Assembly: GCF_023276435.1 (NCBI RefSeq) | Contig: NZ_JALLPO010000014.1 | Coordinates: forward strand, 62,001 to 126,000 | Length of the DNA stretch: 64,000 nt | Source: Sphaerisporangium perillae | Lineage (GTDB): Bacteria > Actinomycetota > Actinomycetes > Streptosporangiales > Streptosporangiaceae | Reading direction: 5' to 3' | Shown here: piece by piece, positions 58,424 through 63,534 of the stretch | How the letters are laid out: every line of letters begins with the position of its first letter | Position numbering within the stretch: the first letter of the stretch is position 1 | Translations under genes and position numbers: made by a program | The notes under the pieces: generated by a model | The model's input: only the letters and a program-made list of their open reading frames with translations | Told to the model about the DNA's origin: nothing | The model's database searches: none

Positions 58424-59170
58424 ATGGCTCTCAAGTTGCCTGGCGCGCGCATCCTCGCGATCGCCGGTGTGGGCGTGCTCGCCGGGTCGTTGGTGGCCGG
58501 CAGCGGCGCGGTGGCGTCCGCGACCGCCTCCGCCAAGGCCAAACCGATATACGCCTGCATGGACAAGACGACCAGGCTGATCCGCATCGTGGGCGTCACC
58601 ACCAAGTGCAAGGACTCCGAGGTCAAGTTCTGGTGGAACAAGGAGGGCCCGGCCGGCGCCGACGGCACGGTGGGCCCGATGGGCCCGCAAGGCGCTAAGG
58701 GCGCCAACGGCGCGCAGGGCGCGAAGGGTGACACCGGTCCGGCGGGTGCCAAGGGCGCCGATGGCAAGGACGGCGCGCAGGGTCTTAAGGGCGCCGACGG
58801 CAAGGACGGCGCGCAGGGCCCGAAGGGTGACACCGGTCCGGCCGGTCCGAAGGGCGCCGATGGCAAGGACGGCAAGGACGGCGAGGACGGCGCACGAGGC
58901 CCGCAGGGTCCCGCCGGGCCCAAGGGCGAGCCGGGTTCGGGCGGCACCGTCACCCCGACGGTGGAGAGCACGAACTTCAACTTCGGCGGCCAGGGAGGTT
59001 CCAAGATCGTCTACTGTGCCAGTGGAAAATTCGCTACAGGTGGCGGTTTCTCCAGTAGCGGCAGCGTTCAGGTGTACACCAGCGCACCGGTCATGTCCGG
59101 CGGCAAGCCGACCGGCTGGCAGGTCGAAGGAAAGAACGGCGGCGGCGCTGTGTATGTCATCTGCGTCTAG
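58424..59170 (+). CDS. Secreted collagen-like repeat protein
   Basis: A 248-residue exported protein. After the signal peptide ([20 protein letters not shown]) come a short Cys-containing head ([35 protein letters not shown]), about 32 Gly-X-Y triplets ([19 protein letters not shown] onward, with DGKDG repeats) and a C-terminal domain of about 75 residues with paired Cys. This head-collagen-tail layout is typical of actinomycete surface proteins of unknown role, presumably trimeric. GGAGAGG precedes ATG 58424. It converges on the DUF6879 gene with an 18-bp gap. Confidence 0.88.
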
Positions 59171-59188
59171 CGCACACGTCCCGGAACG

Positions 59189-59878
59189 CTAGTGGGGGCG
59201 GCGGAACCAGTGGGGGATTCCGCCGCCTTCCGTCAGCGGCGGCGCCAGCGGTACGACCTCCCGCTTGTGGTAGTCGGCCAGGTGCTCGGCCTGGTCGTAA
59301 AGGCCCATGAGCGCGTCCAGGCAGGGGCCGACCACATCCGGGCCGGTCACCCTGCGCGCCCCGGTGTGCAGGCCGATCCCGTCGTACAGCACTTCGTAGC
59401 ACAGCGAGCGAGAGAAGATCACCAGCTCCGGCAGCGGGGCGCGCCGCTCGAGGTCGTGCACGGCGCCGGCGGGCAGGACTCTGATCCGCTCGCCCGCCGC
59501 CAGCCGTAGCGCCAGGAAGTGCATCTCCCACTGCAGGTAGGGCGTGACCGGGGTCTCCACGATGCGCAGCCGACGGAACTCCGGGCTCCTGGCGTACATC
59601 TCCGCCAGCGGCGCGTACCGCTCCTGCATCAGCGCGAGCGAGCGGTCCCAGTCGCCCTCCATCATGGCGCGCCAGCTCTCGACGTCGGGCTCGTAGAACT
59701 CCTGCGCTCGTTCGAGTTTCCACATGGTGTCACGCGCGTTGGCGAAGACCTCGTCGAACTCCTCCTGGTATTCGGCGACGGGCAGAACCTCTGCTTCGGC
59801 GGTCCGAAGACGGTGGAACGGGTCCAAGACTCCTCCGTTTGCGGGCTGTTGCGGAACCAGGGTGTGTGGTCGGTTCAC
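59189..59878 (-). CDS. DUF6879 family protein (RiPP cluster)
   Basis: A 229-residue cytoplasmic protein with the DUF6879-type body (ESWRAMMEGDWDRSLALMQE, FRRLRIVETPVTPYLQWEMH, LPELVIFSRSLCYEVLYDG). Function unknown; related proteins recur with XRE/DUF397 modules. It ends the predicted peptide-modification operon. The GTG at 59878 is fixed by overlap with the stop of the membrane protease (GTGA). Confidence 0.75.
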   Translation of the reverse strand: MNRPHTLVPQQPANGGVLDPFHRLRTAEAEVLPVAEYQEEFDEVFANARDTMWKLERAQEFYEPDVESWRAMMEGDWDRSLALMQERYAPLAEMYARSPEFRRLRIVETPVTPYLQWEMHFLALRLAAGERIRVLPAGAVHDLERRAPLPELVIFSRSLCYEVLYDGIGLHTGARRVTGPDVVGPCLDALMGLYDQAEHLADYHKREVVPLAPPLTEGGGIPHWFRRPH

Positions 59879-61065
59879 TTCCGGTACGCCGTCGTGAGGC
59901 GCGAGGTGGTCAGGGCACGCCGTACGCGGTGACCATGCCGGAGCCACCACGCCCGCGCCCAGAGCGCCTGGAAACCCAGGATGACGGCCAGTGCCACCGC
60001 CGCGTCGGCGACCACGCCGGGGCCGTCCGGACGCCACAGCGTCTCCAGTGCCCGTACCAGCAGGGCCAGCGTGGCGGGCAGGGTGACGAGGACCGCGATC
60101 GAGACGCACACGACCGTCCCGAGCACGGCCAGGGGCGTGTACCAGCGCAGGACACGGCGCTCCGCCGGGGGCAGGGCGGCGAGGGGGTCCGCCCGGCGCC
60201 GGCCCGAGACGAGATGGAGCGCGTACGCGCCCGCGTCGCGGTACAGGTTCCGGCACCCGGTGAGGTCCTGCAGCACGAAGTACACGTCGGTGCGCATGAA
60301 CACCAGGAACTGCGTCGCCACCATGGTCAGCGAGGTCAGCATGACGACCGGCAGCAGCGGATGCCCGCCGGTGGCGACCATGAGCAGCACGCTGATCGCG
60401 CAGATGGTGCCGTCGAGGGTCATGCCGGCCAGGTACACCGTCAGCCGCACCCGGCGTTCCGCCAGCCAGATGCCCGAGACGTCCGTCTGCGCCGCGAGGA
60501 ACTGCAGCCGGGTTCCCAGGCGGATCCTTCCCGGGACCCCGGCGGCGCGGGCGGTCGTGAGGTGCGCGAGTTCGTGGAGCAAGATCAGGGTCCAGCCCAC
60601 CGCCACCTGCGTCAGCAGTACGACCGTGCCGTGGCTGCTCCACAGCAGGTCACGCCAGCCGGGCATGACATCGGGACGTAGGGCGAGCGTGAGGGCCCCG
60701 GCCAGGATGGTCACCGCCATGGCGAGATGGAGCCACGGGTTCAGCGTCCACCGGACGTGCCGGGCCGTCAGGCGCGGCAGGGTCGGGGGAGGCGGCACCG
60801 GTGAGCCGGTGGCACGGCCGTCGACGGCCGCGACCAGGCCCGCCTCGGTCAGCCCGGCGACGAAGCCCGCGACGTCGAGCCGCGTCCCGGTCTCCTGAAG
60901 CAGATGACGCTCGGTGTCCTCGACGGACCTGCCCTGCTGGAGCGACTGGATCGCCCGGAGTCCGGCGTGCGGCACGGCCACGAAGTCGCCGGACTCGACG
61001 CGGCCGACGATCCATTCGTCTCCGTCGCGGCGGAATCCGAGCTCGTGGAGCTGGACCAGGGTCAT
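59875..61065 (-). CDS. Membrane zinc metalloprotease with N-terminal PqqD-like domain
   Basis: A 396-residue M50-type protease. Residues 1-85 resemble a PqqD/RRE-like peptide-recognition domain (DGDEWIVGRVESGDFVAVPH), and the core has about six transmembrane segments with the HELAH zinc motif at residues 164-168 (LILLHELAHLTTARAAG) and the second metal motif in FMRTDVYFVLQDLTGCRNLY. Such proteins process or export modified peptides in RiPP clusters. It lies just downstream of the precursor peptide and a hairpin. ATG 61065. Confidence 0.85.
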   Translation of the reverse strand: MTLVQLHELGFRRDGDEWIVGRVESGDFVAVPHAGLRAIQSLQQGRSVEDTERHLLQETGTRLDVAGFVAGLTEAGLVAAVDGRATGSPVPPPPTLPRLTARHVRWTLNPWLHLAMAVTILAGALTLALRPDVMPGWRDLLWSSHGTVVLLTQVAVGWTLILLHELAHLTTARAAGVPGRIRLGTRLQFLAAQTDVSGIWLAERRVRLTVYLAGMTLDGTICAISVLLMVATGGHPLLPVVMLTSLTMVATQFLVFMRTDVYFVLQDLTGCRNLYRDAGAYALHLVSGRRRADPLAALPPAERRVLRWYTPLAVLGTVVCVSIAVLVTLPATLALLVRALETLWRPDGPGVVADAAVALAVILGFQALWARAWWLRHGHRVRRALTTSRLTTAYRK

Positions 61066-61091
61066 GATGGAGGCATCCTCCGGTGAACGAG

Positions 61092-61125
61092 GATCGGTAG
61101 GCGGGCCTGCGCCCGCCTACCGATC
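61092..61125 (-). terminator. 15-bp hairpin between precursor peptide and protease
   Basis: GATCGGTAGGCGGGC (61092-61106) pairs perfectly with 61111-61125 around a CTGC loop. It begins ten bases after the peptide stop and ends about 27 bases before the protease start. Such hairpins after RiPP precursors act as partial terminators or mRNA stabilisers that raise peptide expression over the downstream genes. Confidence 0.75.
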
Positions 61126-61134
61126 GCCGCTCGA

Positions 61135-61257
61135 TCAGTTGGAGTTGCCAGAGCTGTCAGCGGTGGTCTCGATCTTGTCGAGCCGGCGGATCGTGATCGT
61201 CGCCTTCGCTTCGCTCTCGTTCTCGGAGGGCTGGAACTCGCTTTCGCCGTGAGTCAT
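61135..61257 (-). CDS. Putative RiPP precursor peptide ending in GNSN
   Basis: A 40-residue peptide with a strong ribosome site (GGAAGG six bases before ATG 61257). The acidic leader-like half (MTHGESEFQPSENESEAK) is followed by ATITIRRLDKIETT and the tail ADSSGNSN. No Cys, so not a lanthipeptide or sactipeptide; the terminal Asn preceded by Gly-Asn-Ser resembles the microcin C precursor ending GNAN. It lies between a ThiF-like adenylating enzyme and a peptide-type protease, and is followed by a hairpin. Small size, low G+C and context support a real gene. Confidence 0.8.
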   Translation of the reverse strand: MTHGESEFQPSENESEAKATITIRRLDKIETTADSSGNSN

Positions 61258-61342
61258 ATGGCACCTTCCGTAGAGAGGCTTCTCTTGCCTGATGGGGATA
61301 CGCCGGATTTTCCGCGCCCCGGCGAACGGGGTCAAGAGGCGA

Positions 61343-62482
61343 TCAAGGCCCAGGCCCGGTAAGACCCGTCCCGAATGGCTTCGGCGGCGTCGCTTCCCGG
61401 CCGCAGACGGGGCAGTCGTCGCGGGCGGGATGGCGGACGTCGATGAGGTGGTCGGGCGCGATCAGGTTCAGGCCGCCGATGCGCCCCGGCGGGATGGCGG
61501 GGATCCCGGTGAGCTGCGTGATCACCGCGTGGGCCACGAGGTGCCCGGAGATGCCCGCCGAGGTGGCGATCACCCCTGGCCCTCCCAGGTCGACGGGCGT
61601 GCCCGGGCGGCGCCGTGCCCGCTCGCCCGCGCTGACGCACTCGTAGCACGGGTGGCCGGGCTCGTATACGCCCACCGTCACCAGCGGGCCGCTGTACCCG
61701 CCGCCCGCCCACGGGATGCCCGCGCTCGCGCACGCCCGATTGGCCCAGACGCGCAGGCCGTGGCCGCGCGGCTCGTCGGCGCAGAGCGCGAGCATGTCGG
61801 CGCCCGAGACGAGCTCCGCGAGCTCCTCCTGGCCGCCGACGCGCAGGCGTTCGCCGGTGATCGTCACGTCGGAGTTGACCGCACGGAGCCGGCGTACGGC
61901 GACATCGGCCTTGGCCCGGCCGATGTCGGCCTCTCCGTAGAGCACCTGCCGGTTCAGGTTCGACGGCTCCACCACGTCGGGGTCCACGCAGTGCAGCCGG
62001 CCGACGCCCGCGGCGGCGAGCGCCCAGGCCGCGTGGCTGCCCGTGCCGCCCAGCCCGAGCACCACCACCCGGGCGTTCCTCAGCCTCAGCTGCGCCTCCC
62101 AGCCGTGCTCGCGGGGCGCGAGGTCGACCTGCCGGAAGAAGGCGTGGTTCCTGCTGTAGCGGTCCACCTCCCGGGCGCTGAGCTCGGGCGGGGGCACGGC
62201 CGCCGCGTCCTCGAGGTAGCCCGAGGCGATGAGCTGGGCGACCAGGGACTCCGCCTGGGCGGCGGACAGTTCGCGGAAGGCGAGGGCGAGCCGCGAGGTG
62301 ATCTGCGCGACCGGCAGGGTCCCGTCCATGAGCGAGAGCGCCGCCCAGACCCACCCGTCCGGGTCGTCGATCTCCGCGGCCAGGCCGTAGATCTCCCCGC
62401 CGATGCGCACGGTGCCGTCGGCGTACCGGTGCGGCCGATGTTCGGCCTTCACCCGGGGACGAAGCAAGGACACCACCTCCAC
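61343..62482 (-). CDS. ThiF/MccB-like adenylating enzyme
   Basis: A 379-residue E1-like protein. Residues about 1-95 form a winged-helix peptide-clamp (RRE-like) domain, as in MccB (DGTVRIGGEIYGLAAEIDDP); the adenylation domain has the nucleotide motif VVVLGLGGTGSH (143-148), DPDVVEPSNLNRQVLYGEAD (174-179 the SNLNRQ motif) and a zinc site of CYEC (279) and CPVC (357). Length matches MccB (about 350). It would adenylate the C-terminus of a precursor peptide. No YcaO or dehydrogenase is near, so it is not a heterocycle-forming TOMM partner. GTG starts at 62482, 62476 or 62473 are possible. Confidence 0.85.
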   Translation of the reverse strand: MEVVSLLRPRVKAEHRPHRYADGTVRIGGEIYGLAAEIDDPDGWVWAALSLMDGTLPVAQITSRLALAFRELSAAQAESLVAQLIASGYLEDAAAVPPPELSAREVDRYSRNHAFFRQVDLAPREHGWEAQLRLRNARVVVLGLGGTGSHAAWALAAAGVGRLHCVDPDVVEPSNLNRQVLYGEADIGRAKADVAVRRLRAVNSDVTITGERLRVGGQEELAELVSGADMLALCADEPRGHGLRVWANRACASAGIPWAGGGYSGPLVTVGVYEPGHPCYECVSAGERARRRPGTPVDLGGPGVIATSAGISGHLVAHAVITQLTGIPAIPPGRIGGLNLIAPDHLIDVRHPARDDCPVCGREATPPKPFGTGLTGPGP

Positions 62483-62796
62483 CTCGAAGGATCGAGGTTC
62501 CGGCGATCATGTCAAGGGCGCGGCGGCCACCGTCCCATGGGGGCGGACCACTCACGGGCACGAATGACCAGTTGTCCGAAAAGAGGTGTCTTGCCCGTAT
62601 CCTGCCGTGGTGCTGAGTTACTACAGATCAGAGCGATGATGCCCCTTGTGATGCTCGTGCCACGCGAGCAGGTCCCGGGTGAGCGTCTTGCGGGCGAACA
62701 GGTCCTGCGCGAGCAGACCAGGCGTGAGCGCGTCCCGCGCCGGCACGTCCCGGACCCGGTGCGCGCGGCCGGACAGTACGGCGCAGGGCGAGGCTG
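62483..62796. promoter_or_regulatory. Divergent region between RiPP operon and TauE gene
   Basis: This 314-bp gene-free region must hold both promoters. A CCTCGA-AGGA-TCGAGG palindrome at 62483-62498 immediately precedes the adenylating-enzyme start and could be its operator. The stretch 62650-62790 contains degenerate GCGAGCAGGTCC-like repeats. No regulator gene is adjacent. Confidence 0.45.
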
Positions 62797-63534
62797 ATGC
62801 CGTCCCTCGACCTCGCGCAGTGGGCCGTGGTGATCTTCTCCCTCATCCTCGTGGGGGTCGCCAAGACCGGCGTCTCCGGCACCGGTACGGTCGCGGTCGC
62901 GCTGTTCGCGCTCGTGCTGCCGACGAAGAGCTCCACGGGAATGCTGCTGCCGCTGCTGCTCGTCGGCGACGTCGTCGCCGTGGTCTCCTACCGGCGCCAC
63001 GCCGACTGGCCGAAACTGCTCAGGCTCTTCCCCTGGCTCGCGGTCGGAGTCGTGGCCGGCGCCGTCGTCGTCCGCTGGGTCGACGACACACAGATGAGAA
63101 GGATCATCGGGGCGATCCTGCTGGCCTTCATCGCCATCCACTTCTGGAACCGGCGCCGCGGGCCGGAAGCGTCGCTGGGCCACAACCGCACGGCGGCCGC
63201 CCTGGCCGGGATCCTGGCCGGCTTCGCCACCATGACCGCCAACGCCGCCGGCCCCATCATGGCCGTGTACTTCCTGGCGACCGGCCTGCCGATGCTGGGC
63301 TTCCTCGGCACCAGCGCCTGGTTGTTCCTGCTGCTCAACGCCTTCAAGGTGCCGTTCAGCGTCGCGCTGGGGCTCATCACCCCCGCCACGCTGGCCTTCG
63401 CCGCCGCGACGGCCCCCGCCGTCCTCGTGGGCGCCGCGGCCGGCCGGGCGATAATCCGGCGCATCGACAGGACCTGGTTCGAACGCGTGACCCTCGCCCT
63501 CACCTTCCTCGCCGCCGTGCGCCTGATGTTCTGA
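62797..63534 (+). CDS. TauE/SafE family permease (sulfite/organosulfonate exporter type)
   Basis: A 245-residue integral membrane protein with about seven to eight hydrophobic segments. The N-terminal SLILVGVAKTGVSGTGTVAV and C-terminal GFATMTANAAGPIMAVYFLA motifs are the two internal repeats of TauE/SafE proteins. They move sulfur or carbon-oxo anions across the membrane; substrate unknown. ATG 62797 has GGGCGAGG upstream. The end of the gene is tandemly duplicated. Confidence 0.9.
   Translation: MPSLDLAQWAVVIFSLILVGVAKTGVSGTGTVAVALFALVLPTKSSTGMLLPLLLVGDVVAVVSYRRHADWPKLLRLFPWLAVGVVAGAVVVRWVDDTQMRRIIGAILLAFIAIHFWNRRRGPEASLGHNRTAAALAGILAGFATMTANAAGPIMAVYFLATGLPMLGFLGTSAWLFLLLNAFKVPFSVALGLITPATLAFAAATAPAVLVGAAAGRAIIRRIDRTWFERVTLALTFLAAVRLMF

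Follow-up and report, generated by a model that had tools for sequence, protein, structure and literature searches.

Enzymes that join an RRE (RiPP recognition element, or peptide clamp) to an adenylating domain of the ThiF type, and are thereby related to the enzymes that initiate ubiquitin tagging, act in several pathways to ribosomally synthesized and post-translationally modified peptides (RiPPs). The five whose reactions are covered by PMC12250964 and PMC12150305 (MccB, PaaA, GrcB, EnfB, and IndF) carry out differing reactions. The cluster described here appears to encode a further enzyme of this kind. It lies in a stretch of 64,000 nucleotides from the soil actinomycete Sphaerisporangium perillae (contig NZ_JALLPO010000014.1, positions 62,001 to 126,000), called the window throughout, within which all coordinates are given. 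Four genes, all on the minus strand, make up the cluster, in the order E (an RRE-ThiF enzyme), a peptide of 40 amino acids, P (a membrane protease), and D (a DUF6879 protein), with intergenic gaps of 85 (E/peptide), 69 (peptide/P), and 47 (P/D) bases.

MccB, of the microcin C pathway, is likewise an RRE-ThiF enzyme, one that uses ATP on the C-terminus of a short precursor as E is proposed to do. However, it acts on a terminal Asn (PMC12150305), whereas the last residue varies in the window family (the window cluster and its homologues, described below), which also has a longer leader and a membrane protease. PaaA, of the pantocin A pathway of Pantoea, is an RRE-ThiF enzyme too, the best-scoring solved relative of E (5ff5), and works within a similarly tiny gene set. 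It differs in that its substrate is two adjacent Glu residues, with decarboxylation (PMC12250964), and a Glu pair is no feature of the peptides considered here. Pantocin, as it is described there, has an oxygenase (PaaB) and an exporter (PaaC) but no RRE-M50 protease, which the window set possesses. GrcB, an RRE-ThiF enzyme of the GRC-type systems of Streptococcus, makes a thiolactone macrocycle, but the link described for it runs from an internal Glu to a Cys at the C-terminus, and GRC clusters include radical SAM enzymes (PMC12250964). IndF of Streptococcus and EnfB of Enterococcus, also RRE-ThiF enzymes, activate and cyclize the peptide C-terminus (PMC12150305 and PMC12250964). Their nucleophile is a Trp indole or a backbone nitrogen and their cores are rich in Trp and Ile, whereas those of the window family are rich in Ser, Gly, and Asn. 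A dedicated protease is encoded with IndF as well (PMC12150305), of M16 type rather than the RRE-M50 type of the window set, and the EnfB system has several transporters where the window cluster has its RRE-M50 protease.

The protease, too, has parallels. Daptide systems fuse an RRE to an intramembrane site-2 protease, and M50 proteases, the class of P, release epipeptides and pearlin residues. All three systems differ from the window set in their modifying enzymes and precursors, and the word ThiF is absent from the main text of the daptide paper. The B1 RREs of lasso peptide pathways (TbiB1, 5v1u/5v1v; 6jx3) differ in that they stand alone.

An intact ThiF domain, an N-terminal RRE, and a nearby precursor with a conserved leader and a variable tail would place the window cluster among the RRE-ThiF RiPP pathways. 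A preliminary description, made from the letters of the DNA, had already called the cluster RiPP-type and named its four minus-strand genes: a ThiF/MccB-like enzyme with a peptide clamp, a Cys-free peptide ending Gly-Asn-Ser-Asn, an HExxH membrane protease with a PqqD-like N-terminus, and DUF6879. These genes are all present, and the RRE of E, the precursor family, and the RRE-fused protease bear out the assignment of the cluster. As set out below, what that description supposed of the product has fared less well.

E (61343..62473) matches Pfam ThiF (PF00899, residues 124-330, 61493..62113) with an E-value of 6.5e-47. The start at GTG 62473 (376 aa), behind a GGAGG-like site, looks likelier than that at GTG 62482, which gives the 379 residues first proposed; the gene stands, and its length probably does not. 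Against solved structures, E by sequence matches PaaA with 108.5 bits over residues 7-209, the N-terminal domain included, and MccB with 101 bits over residues 96-283. A profile of 20 members gives 168.5 bits for PaaA, 164.5 for MccB, 157.6 for MoeB, and 135 for ThiF. With 168.5 against 164.5 bits the order of the first two is narrow, and what distinguishes PaaA is that its match, from profile position 3, spans the RRE and part of the catalytic domain, while the match to MccB covers the catalytic domain only. The expected likeness to MccB is therefore real, although PaaA scores marginally higher. The N-terminal domain itself matches PaaA-like_N in 7 and PqqD in 3 of the 20 members (E-value ≤ 0.01); window E alone, at 0.042 against PaaA-like_N, falls below the cut-off. 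The domain (about residues 7-96, limits approximate, 62195..62464, placed by its alignment to the N-terminal region of PaaA) is accordingly assigned as an RRE at the level of the family.

Arg178, Lys191, Asp236, Asp169, Cys279, and Cys282 of E (379-aa numbering) do not vary among the 90 homologues. Judged from alignment and spacing, the first three correspond to the catalytic Arg and Lys that are important in PaaA as in EnfB, and to the Mg-binding Asp of EnfB (PMC12250964). Since the catalytic residues are identical in all 90, E should be an active adenylating enzyme and not a docking protein. A role as docking partner of the kind found with thiazole/oxazole-modified microcins (TOMMs) was considered, as TIGR03882 matches 5 of the 20 members (E-value ≤ 1e-5), and was rejected, all catalytic residues being retained. 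Phage-defence E1-E2 systems were also set aside: the PADLOC matches shown span only part of the ThiF core.

The peptide gene (61135..61257) encodes MTHGESEFQPSENESEAKATITIRRLDKIETTADSSGNSN, 40 residues without Cys and with GNSN at the C-terminal end. Its leader carries a motif (ITIRRLDKIETT, 61162..61197) that in the family takes the form of variants of IxIRxLDKxETT, followed by a short tail, or core, of 6-11 residues to the stop; the window core is ADSSGNSN (61138..61161). When a 12-column motif built from the first matches was scanned across the 90 loci, 84 of them had a precursor no more than 4.5 kb from E, 98 precursors in total. (The 90 leave aside a further ThiF locus, L047, which matched in part and has no motif precursor; with it the count is 84/91.) The motif matched nowhere in 3-mer-shuffled loci amounting to 2.27 Mb, and in the 64-kb window it matched at the peptide and at no other place. 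Among 15 loci with other ThiF genes it had one match (L021), itself a distant set of the same kind. Because the motif recurs near E in 84 of the 90 loci and not in the shuffled controls, the peptide is more than a chance reading frame, a possibility that we regard as excluded. A motif precursor was not found in L056, L060, L061, L121, L122, and L123. In L060 and L061 (Pseudonocardiaceae), tiny motif-less reading frames of 22-23 aa end 10-17 bases before the matched start of E and may represent a different type of precursor.

Over the 98 precursors the motif keeps Leu6 in all, Ile1 in 87, Ile3 in 92, Arg4 in 93, and Glu10 in 96 (Gln in the other 2); position 11 is Thr in 94 and Cys in 4, position 12 is Thr in 88 and Ala in 10, and position 7 is non-acidic in 8. 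A profile search of the database found 307 precursor proteins (E-value ≤ 0.01), and among the 120 of these listed the named ones are all hypothetical or uncharacterized. Lengths range up to 75 aa among the database matches listed, and the shortest precursor at a locus has 18 aa.

The last residue of the 98 precursors is Asn in 43, Ser in 18, Gly in 17, Ala in 13, Thr in 4, and Asp, Cys, or Met in one each, and 41 of the 84 loci have no precursor ending in Asn. From the terminal Asn the preliminary description had supposed that the cluster makes a peptidyl-nucleotide, and it had looked to homologous clusters for the invariance of that residue; the residue is not invariant, and the supposition loses its ground. 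In such a reaction, of the microcin C type, E would turn the last residue, Asn, into a nucleotide attached through a phosphoramidate. The 164.5-bit likeness to MccB, the GNSN end of the window peptide, and the place of Asn as the commonest last residue are all in keeping with this, as are the MFS-type transporters noticed by eye near the cluster in L036, L039, L040, L041, and L057 (transporters of MFS or ABC type, again by eye, stand near the cluster in a few relatives). But 55 precursors end otherwise, one of them (L036, core ending NSNS) beside an enzyme 66% identical to window E; the sequence match to MccB stops short of the RRE that the match to PaaA includes; and no exporter of the MFS or MccC type adjoins the window cluster (a scan of the whole window for exporters or YcaO was not made). 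We consider the reaction improbable, if conceivable for the Asn-ending peptide of the window itself, and membership of the family in microcin C was rejected, the terminal Asn not being kept. Six of the 84 loci have a precursor that ends in the form GNxN, namely the window, four others of its genus, and L111, and five loci of the genus, the window included, have the very core ADSSGNSN. At 65-70% identity to window E the tails are already NTYSGNSNS, AVSGSIGN, or TSSNSVGN.

What the cores do share is the placement of Ser or Cys. In this regard, distinct cores were counted among the 120 listed database precursors together with those of the loci, the plasmid and distant loci (L125-L133) apart. Of 80 such cores in the main group, 59 have Ser or Cys at position -6 from the end, 61 at position +3, and 78 at one or the other; 5000 shuffles within cores gave means of 24, 24, and 33 and maxima of 40, 41, and 49. 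Reckoned from the first Ser or Cys at or past core position 3 to the end, a ring would have six residues for 35 of the 50 distinct cores at the loci, and five or seven for 12. Cys stands in for Ser (YCGNSNS beside YSGNSNS), and it occupies +3 or -6 in 8 of 11 distinct Cys-bearing locus cores: TTYCGNSNS, GDLKCGNSNS, GFCGDNA, SFCATEM, GVCEHDTYNG, AACPIHGDC, SQCGDYDSVPT, and CEEEGCEGAGG. In the other three, VCSNSTGN, ICSNSYGN, and TVLCSSSA, the Cys lies off both positions. A C-terminal Cys, as in GRC-type substrates, occurs in 1 of the 98 locus precursors (AACPIHGDC, L046) and in a distant one (SNSNGC, L125), and the window peptide has no Cys at all.

Acids, on the other hand, are missing from many cores: 36 of the 80 distinct main cores have neither Asp nor Glu. 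This bears on a PaaA-like dehydration and decarboxylation of side-chain acids, which one might suppose from the rank of PaaA as best-scoring solved relative over both the RRE and the catalytic domain. The adjacent Glu pair on which PaaA acts is absent from the window core and, by eye, is present in 1 of the 80 (CEEEGCEGAGG), and we give such a reaction very little credence. Only one acid, the C-terminal carboxylate, recurs in every precursor seen, as the Glu of ETT is replaced by Arg or Lys in two of four distant precursors (L127 and L129, considered below).

The cluster probably makes a small modified RiPP, and a ring-closed one seems likely. Somewhat short of an even chance, in our estimation, is a more specific proposal: adenylation of the C-terminus by E, closure of a Ser/Cys (thio)lactone ring of about six residues, and removal of the leader by P. 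The RRE of E would bind the IxIRxLDK strand of the precursor, and E with ATP would adenylate the C-terminal carboxylate (Asn40 in the window peptide). In precursors of the main group, the acyl-adenylate would then be attacked by a Ser or Cys side chain some six residues before the C-terminus, to give a small (thio)lactone; in the window this would link Ser35 (core position 3, 61153-61155) to Asn40. P would then cut off the leader, perhaps close to ETT, and might also free the product, with D as an accessory protein. Two points favour activation of the C-terminus: no other acid is shared by the precursors seen, and EnfB and IndF are reported to act in this way. The (thio)lactone is favoured because the Ser or Cys sits near six residues from the end and the two residues exchange.

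Several observations weigh against this proposal. Among the 88 precursors at main-group loci, three (L087, L095, and L096) have no Ser or Cys at +3 or -6, and a plasmid core (NSPCANAS) misses both positions. Since the cores are 28% Ser and the sequences are related, the shuffle figures are descriptive and not probabilities. In the window core, Ser35 and Ser36 are adjacent. Position 11 of the motif, Thr or Cys throughout, is an equally conserved possible nucleophile. No exporter or receptor recurs widely among the neighbours of 48 compared loci.

A further difficulty is that 39 of the 80 distinct cores have eight residues, in which +3 coincides with -6, so a link from Ser to the C-terminus and one from Glu10 to Ser cannot be told apart in them. 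The latter is the GrcB-like alternative, the strongest single rival reaction, though on balance we think it unlikely: E would adenylate the side chain of the ETT Glu, and a Ser or Cys five residues later would attack to form an internal Glu-Ser ester or Glu-Cys thioester. The Glu is kept in 96 of the 98 precursors, Ser or Cys stands at +3 in 61 of the 80 distinct main cores, Arg takes that position in all 9 distinct cores of a separate clade (R-type, below), and the joining of an internal Glu to Cys has the precedent of GrcB itself (PMC12250964). Yet Gln replaces the Glu in L057 and L062 (both in one clade) beside enzymes with all the catalytic residues, Arg and Lys stand in its place in L127 and L129, and some cores of 9 or 10 residues keep Ser or Cys at -6 while the distance from the Glu shifts.

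Or perhaps the acyl-adenylate forms at the C-terminus and meets another fate: an EnfB-like macrocyclic imide or C-terminal amide, head-to-tail cyclization after the leader is removed, or a ring to the Thr or Cys of position 11. From such an acyl-adenylate EnfB is reported to yield an imide or amides (PMC12250964), and the conservation of position 11 in 98 of 98 precursors would suit the last of these. Also consistent are the R-type and distant cores without the anchoring residue, but the placed Ser or Cys of the main group and their exchange would be left unexplained. Even taken together, these fates seem doubtful to us.

The R-type clade of enzymes comprises 10 loci (L042-L045, L116-L120, and L124; support 100/95), whose 9 distinct cores all have the form xxR...G with terminal Gly (e.g., GLREGG). 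Five other ThiF loci, at 31-36% enzyme identity, are more distant, and four of these keep peptide, ThiF, and M50 genes: L125 (MKIEIKKVEEVETT-SNSNGC), L127 ((GTG)KIEIKRVENTRLT-QLIHPDS), L128 (MSITITKVEKIEAT-MMHTHPAALA), and L129 ((GTG)KIEVRKVEAVKAT-QFMT), with precursors of 18-24 aa from the nearest start. In the fifth, L126, neither a motif peptide nor a protease was found. To judge from sequence, these distant sets and the window family would form a larger superfamily. R-type cores have no Ser or Cys at the proposed site, nor do QFMT and MMHTHPAALA, so they would need another nucleophile or another reaction, which counts against a (thio)lactone as the general product; the chemistry of the R-type clade may differ from that of the main group.

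Tails of the form xxR...G are reminiscent of the C-terminal tails of ubiquitin-like proteins. Another reading is sulfur-carrier activation of the ThiF/MoeB type, with the peptide as a miniature ThiS-like carrier; the catalytic domain also resembles MoeB and ThiF (157.6 and 135 bits), and the R-type cores end in Gly. We find this scarcely credible, given the RREs on both E and P, the conserved leader with a variable tail, the lack of a Gly-Gly end in the window peptide, and the failure of window E to come near the curated cut-off for any of the NCBIfam models listed.

The 90 loci were drawn from 60 relatives, a genome-collection scan that gave 33 loci, 150 Streptosporangiaceae genomes, and one locus of a phylum-wide sample. 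Dropped rows were L048 and L051 (duplicates of L033 and L035) and a frame-shifted second reading of the motif in L041. At an E-value ≤ 1e-60, E was found in 42 of the 150 family genomes and in 2 of 396 genomes of the phylum sample (five candidates scored per genome), one of the two being the window's own; at that threshold the set is therefore not common across the phylum. A database search for E found at least 495 proteins (E-value ≤ 1e-30). The closest matches in named records are from Sphaerisporangium, and named loci come from Sphaerisporangium, Microbispora, Streptomyces, Actinacidiphila, Actinoallomurus, Amycolatopsis, Saccharothrix, and Micromonospora. Plasmids gave 50 matches, 20 of them listed and four of those examined; three actinomycete plasmids carry E with motif peptides, and the four peptides have the cores AVCHEDVPCS, AQSCPRCA, GLPCSGNGAS, and NSPCANAS after ETT. 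The precursor motif had no match at the locus of a Sporosarcina plasmid (pA38H4, Bacillota; L132), where a ThiF gene of 32% identity is followed by ABC transporter genes and a 19-aa reading frame, MKIRKLSNKQVSKTAVEPR, lies just upstream.

P (59875..61065, 396 aa) is predicted to join an RRE fold to an M50/site-2-type HExxH core. The RRE fold appears at the N-terminus (about residues 1-82, 60820..61065) of its AlphaFold2 model (pLDDT 86.3), in line with the PqqD-like domain first noted there. The HExxH motif, HELAH in the window (residues 164-168, 60562..60576), is present in 55 of 55 homologues. Peptidase_M50 matches 19 of 22 homologues (E-value ≤ 0.01), with window P itself at 0.03. A local tblastn search located the gene for P at 55 of the 90 loci, and a match occurs somewhere in 13 of 23 genomes checked. 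D (59189..59827, 212 aa from its likely start, TTG 59827, behind GGAGG) belongs to DUF6879 (Pfam E-value 1e-36), a Pfam family of unknown function with 192 proteins at an E-value ≤ 1e-10. Its model (pLDDT 92.6), with Foldseek and VIA matches, predicts a phospholipase-D-like fold; the sequence of D has no HxK motif. DUF6879 was found in 29 of the 90 loci, some of which end at contig ends. By these counts neither P nor DUF6879 is universal in the family. In 16 loci (L052-L056, L058, L059, L062, L063, L065, L068, L069, L074, L075, L077, and L080), where DUF6879 was not found, an M14-type zinc carboxypeptidase adjoins the precursor; it could trim or hydrolyse the C-terminus of the peptide.

A simple consensus scan of 58900-62900 found no terminator-like site and one promoter-like match, between E and the peptide gene. 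Directly downstream of the cluster, on the opposite strand, is a gene for a protein of collagen Gly-X-Y repeats (58424-59170, +). The nearest transporter-like gene, TauE/SafE (62797-63534), is divergent. Neither flanking gene is among the neighbour families that recur in the 48 compared loci.

No description of an actinomycete ThiF-M50 family was found among the passages retrieved by full-text searches of the open-licence literature, which included some of RRE-Finder (PMC7470986), of a RiPP review from 2020 (PMC7136475), and of an RRE paper from 2025 (PMC12710340), nor did open-licence full texts yield papers on the precursor motif strings or DUF6879. The main text of a 2025 review (PMC12250964) mentions none of Streptomyces, actinomycete, actinobacteria, Nocardia, or M50.

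The rings of autoinducing peptides (AIPs) are closed by a membrane protease, AgrB. A bolder thought, which we put forward as rather improbable, is that the family is an undescribed actinomycete class of ribosomal (thio)lactone peptides, with AIP-like rings closed by a soluble E1-like enzyme and freed by an RRE-guided intramembrane protease. Variable rings that are rich in Ser, Gly, and Asn and mostly uncharged would then suit strain-specific signals rather than antibiotics, and in the R-type and distant clades that same scaffold would undergo other chemistries, likewise carried out by E1-like enzymes. The family offers many pairs of enzyme and substrate with very short precursors. If such a class exists, it would be a new way of making AIP-like rings, and if the R-type or distant clades carry out other chemistry, then one scaffold would link several reactions.

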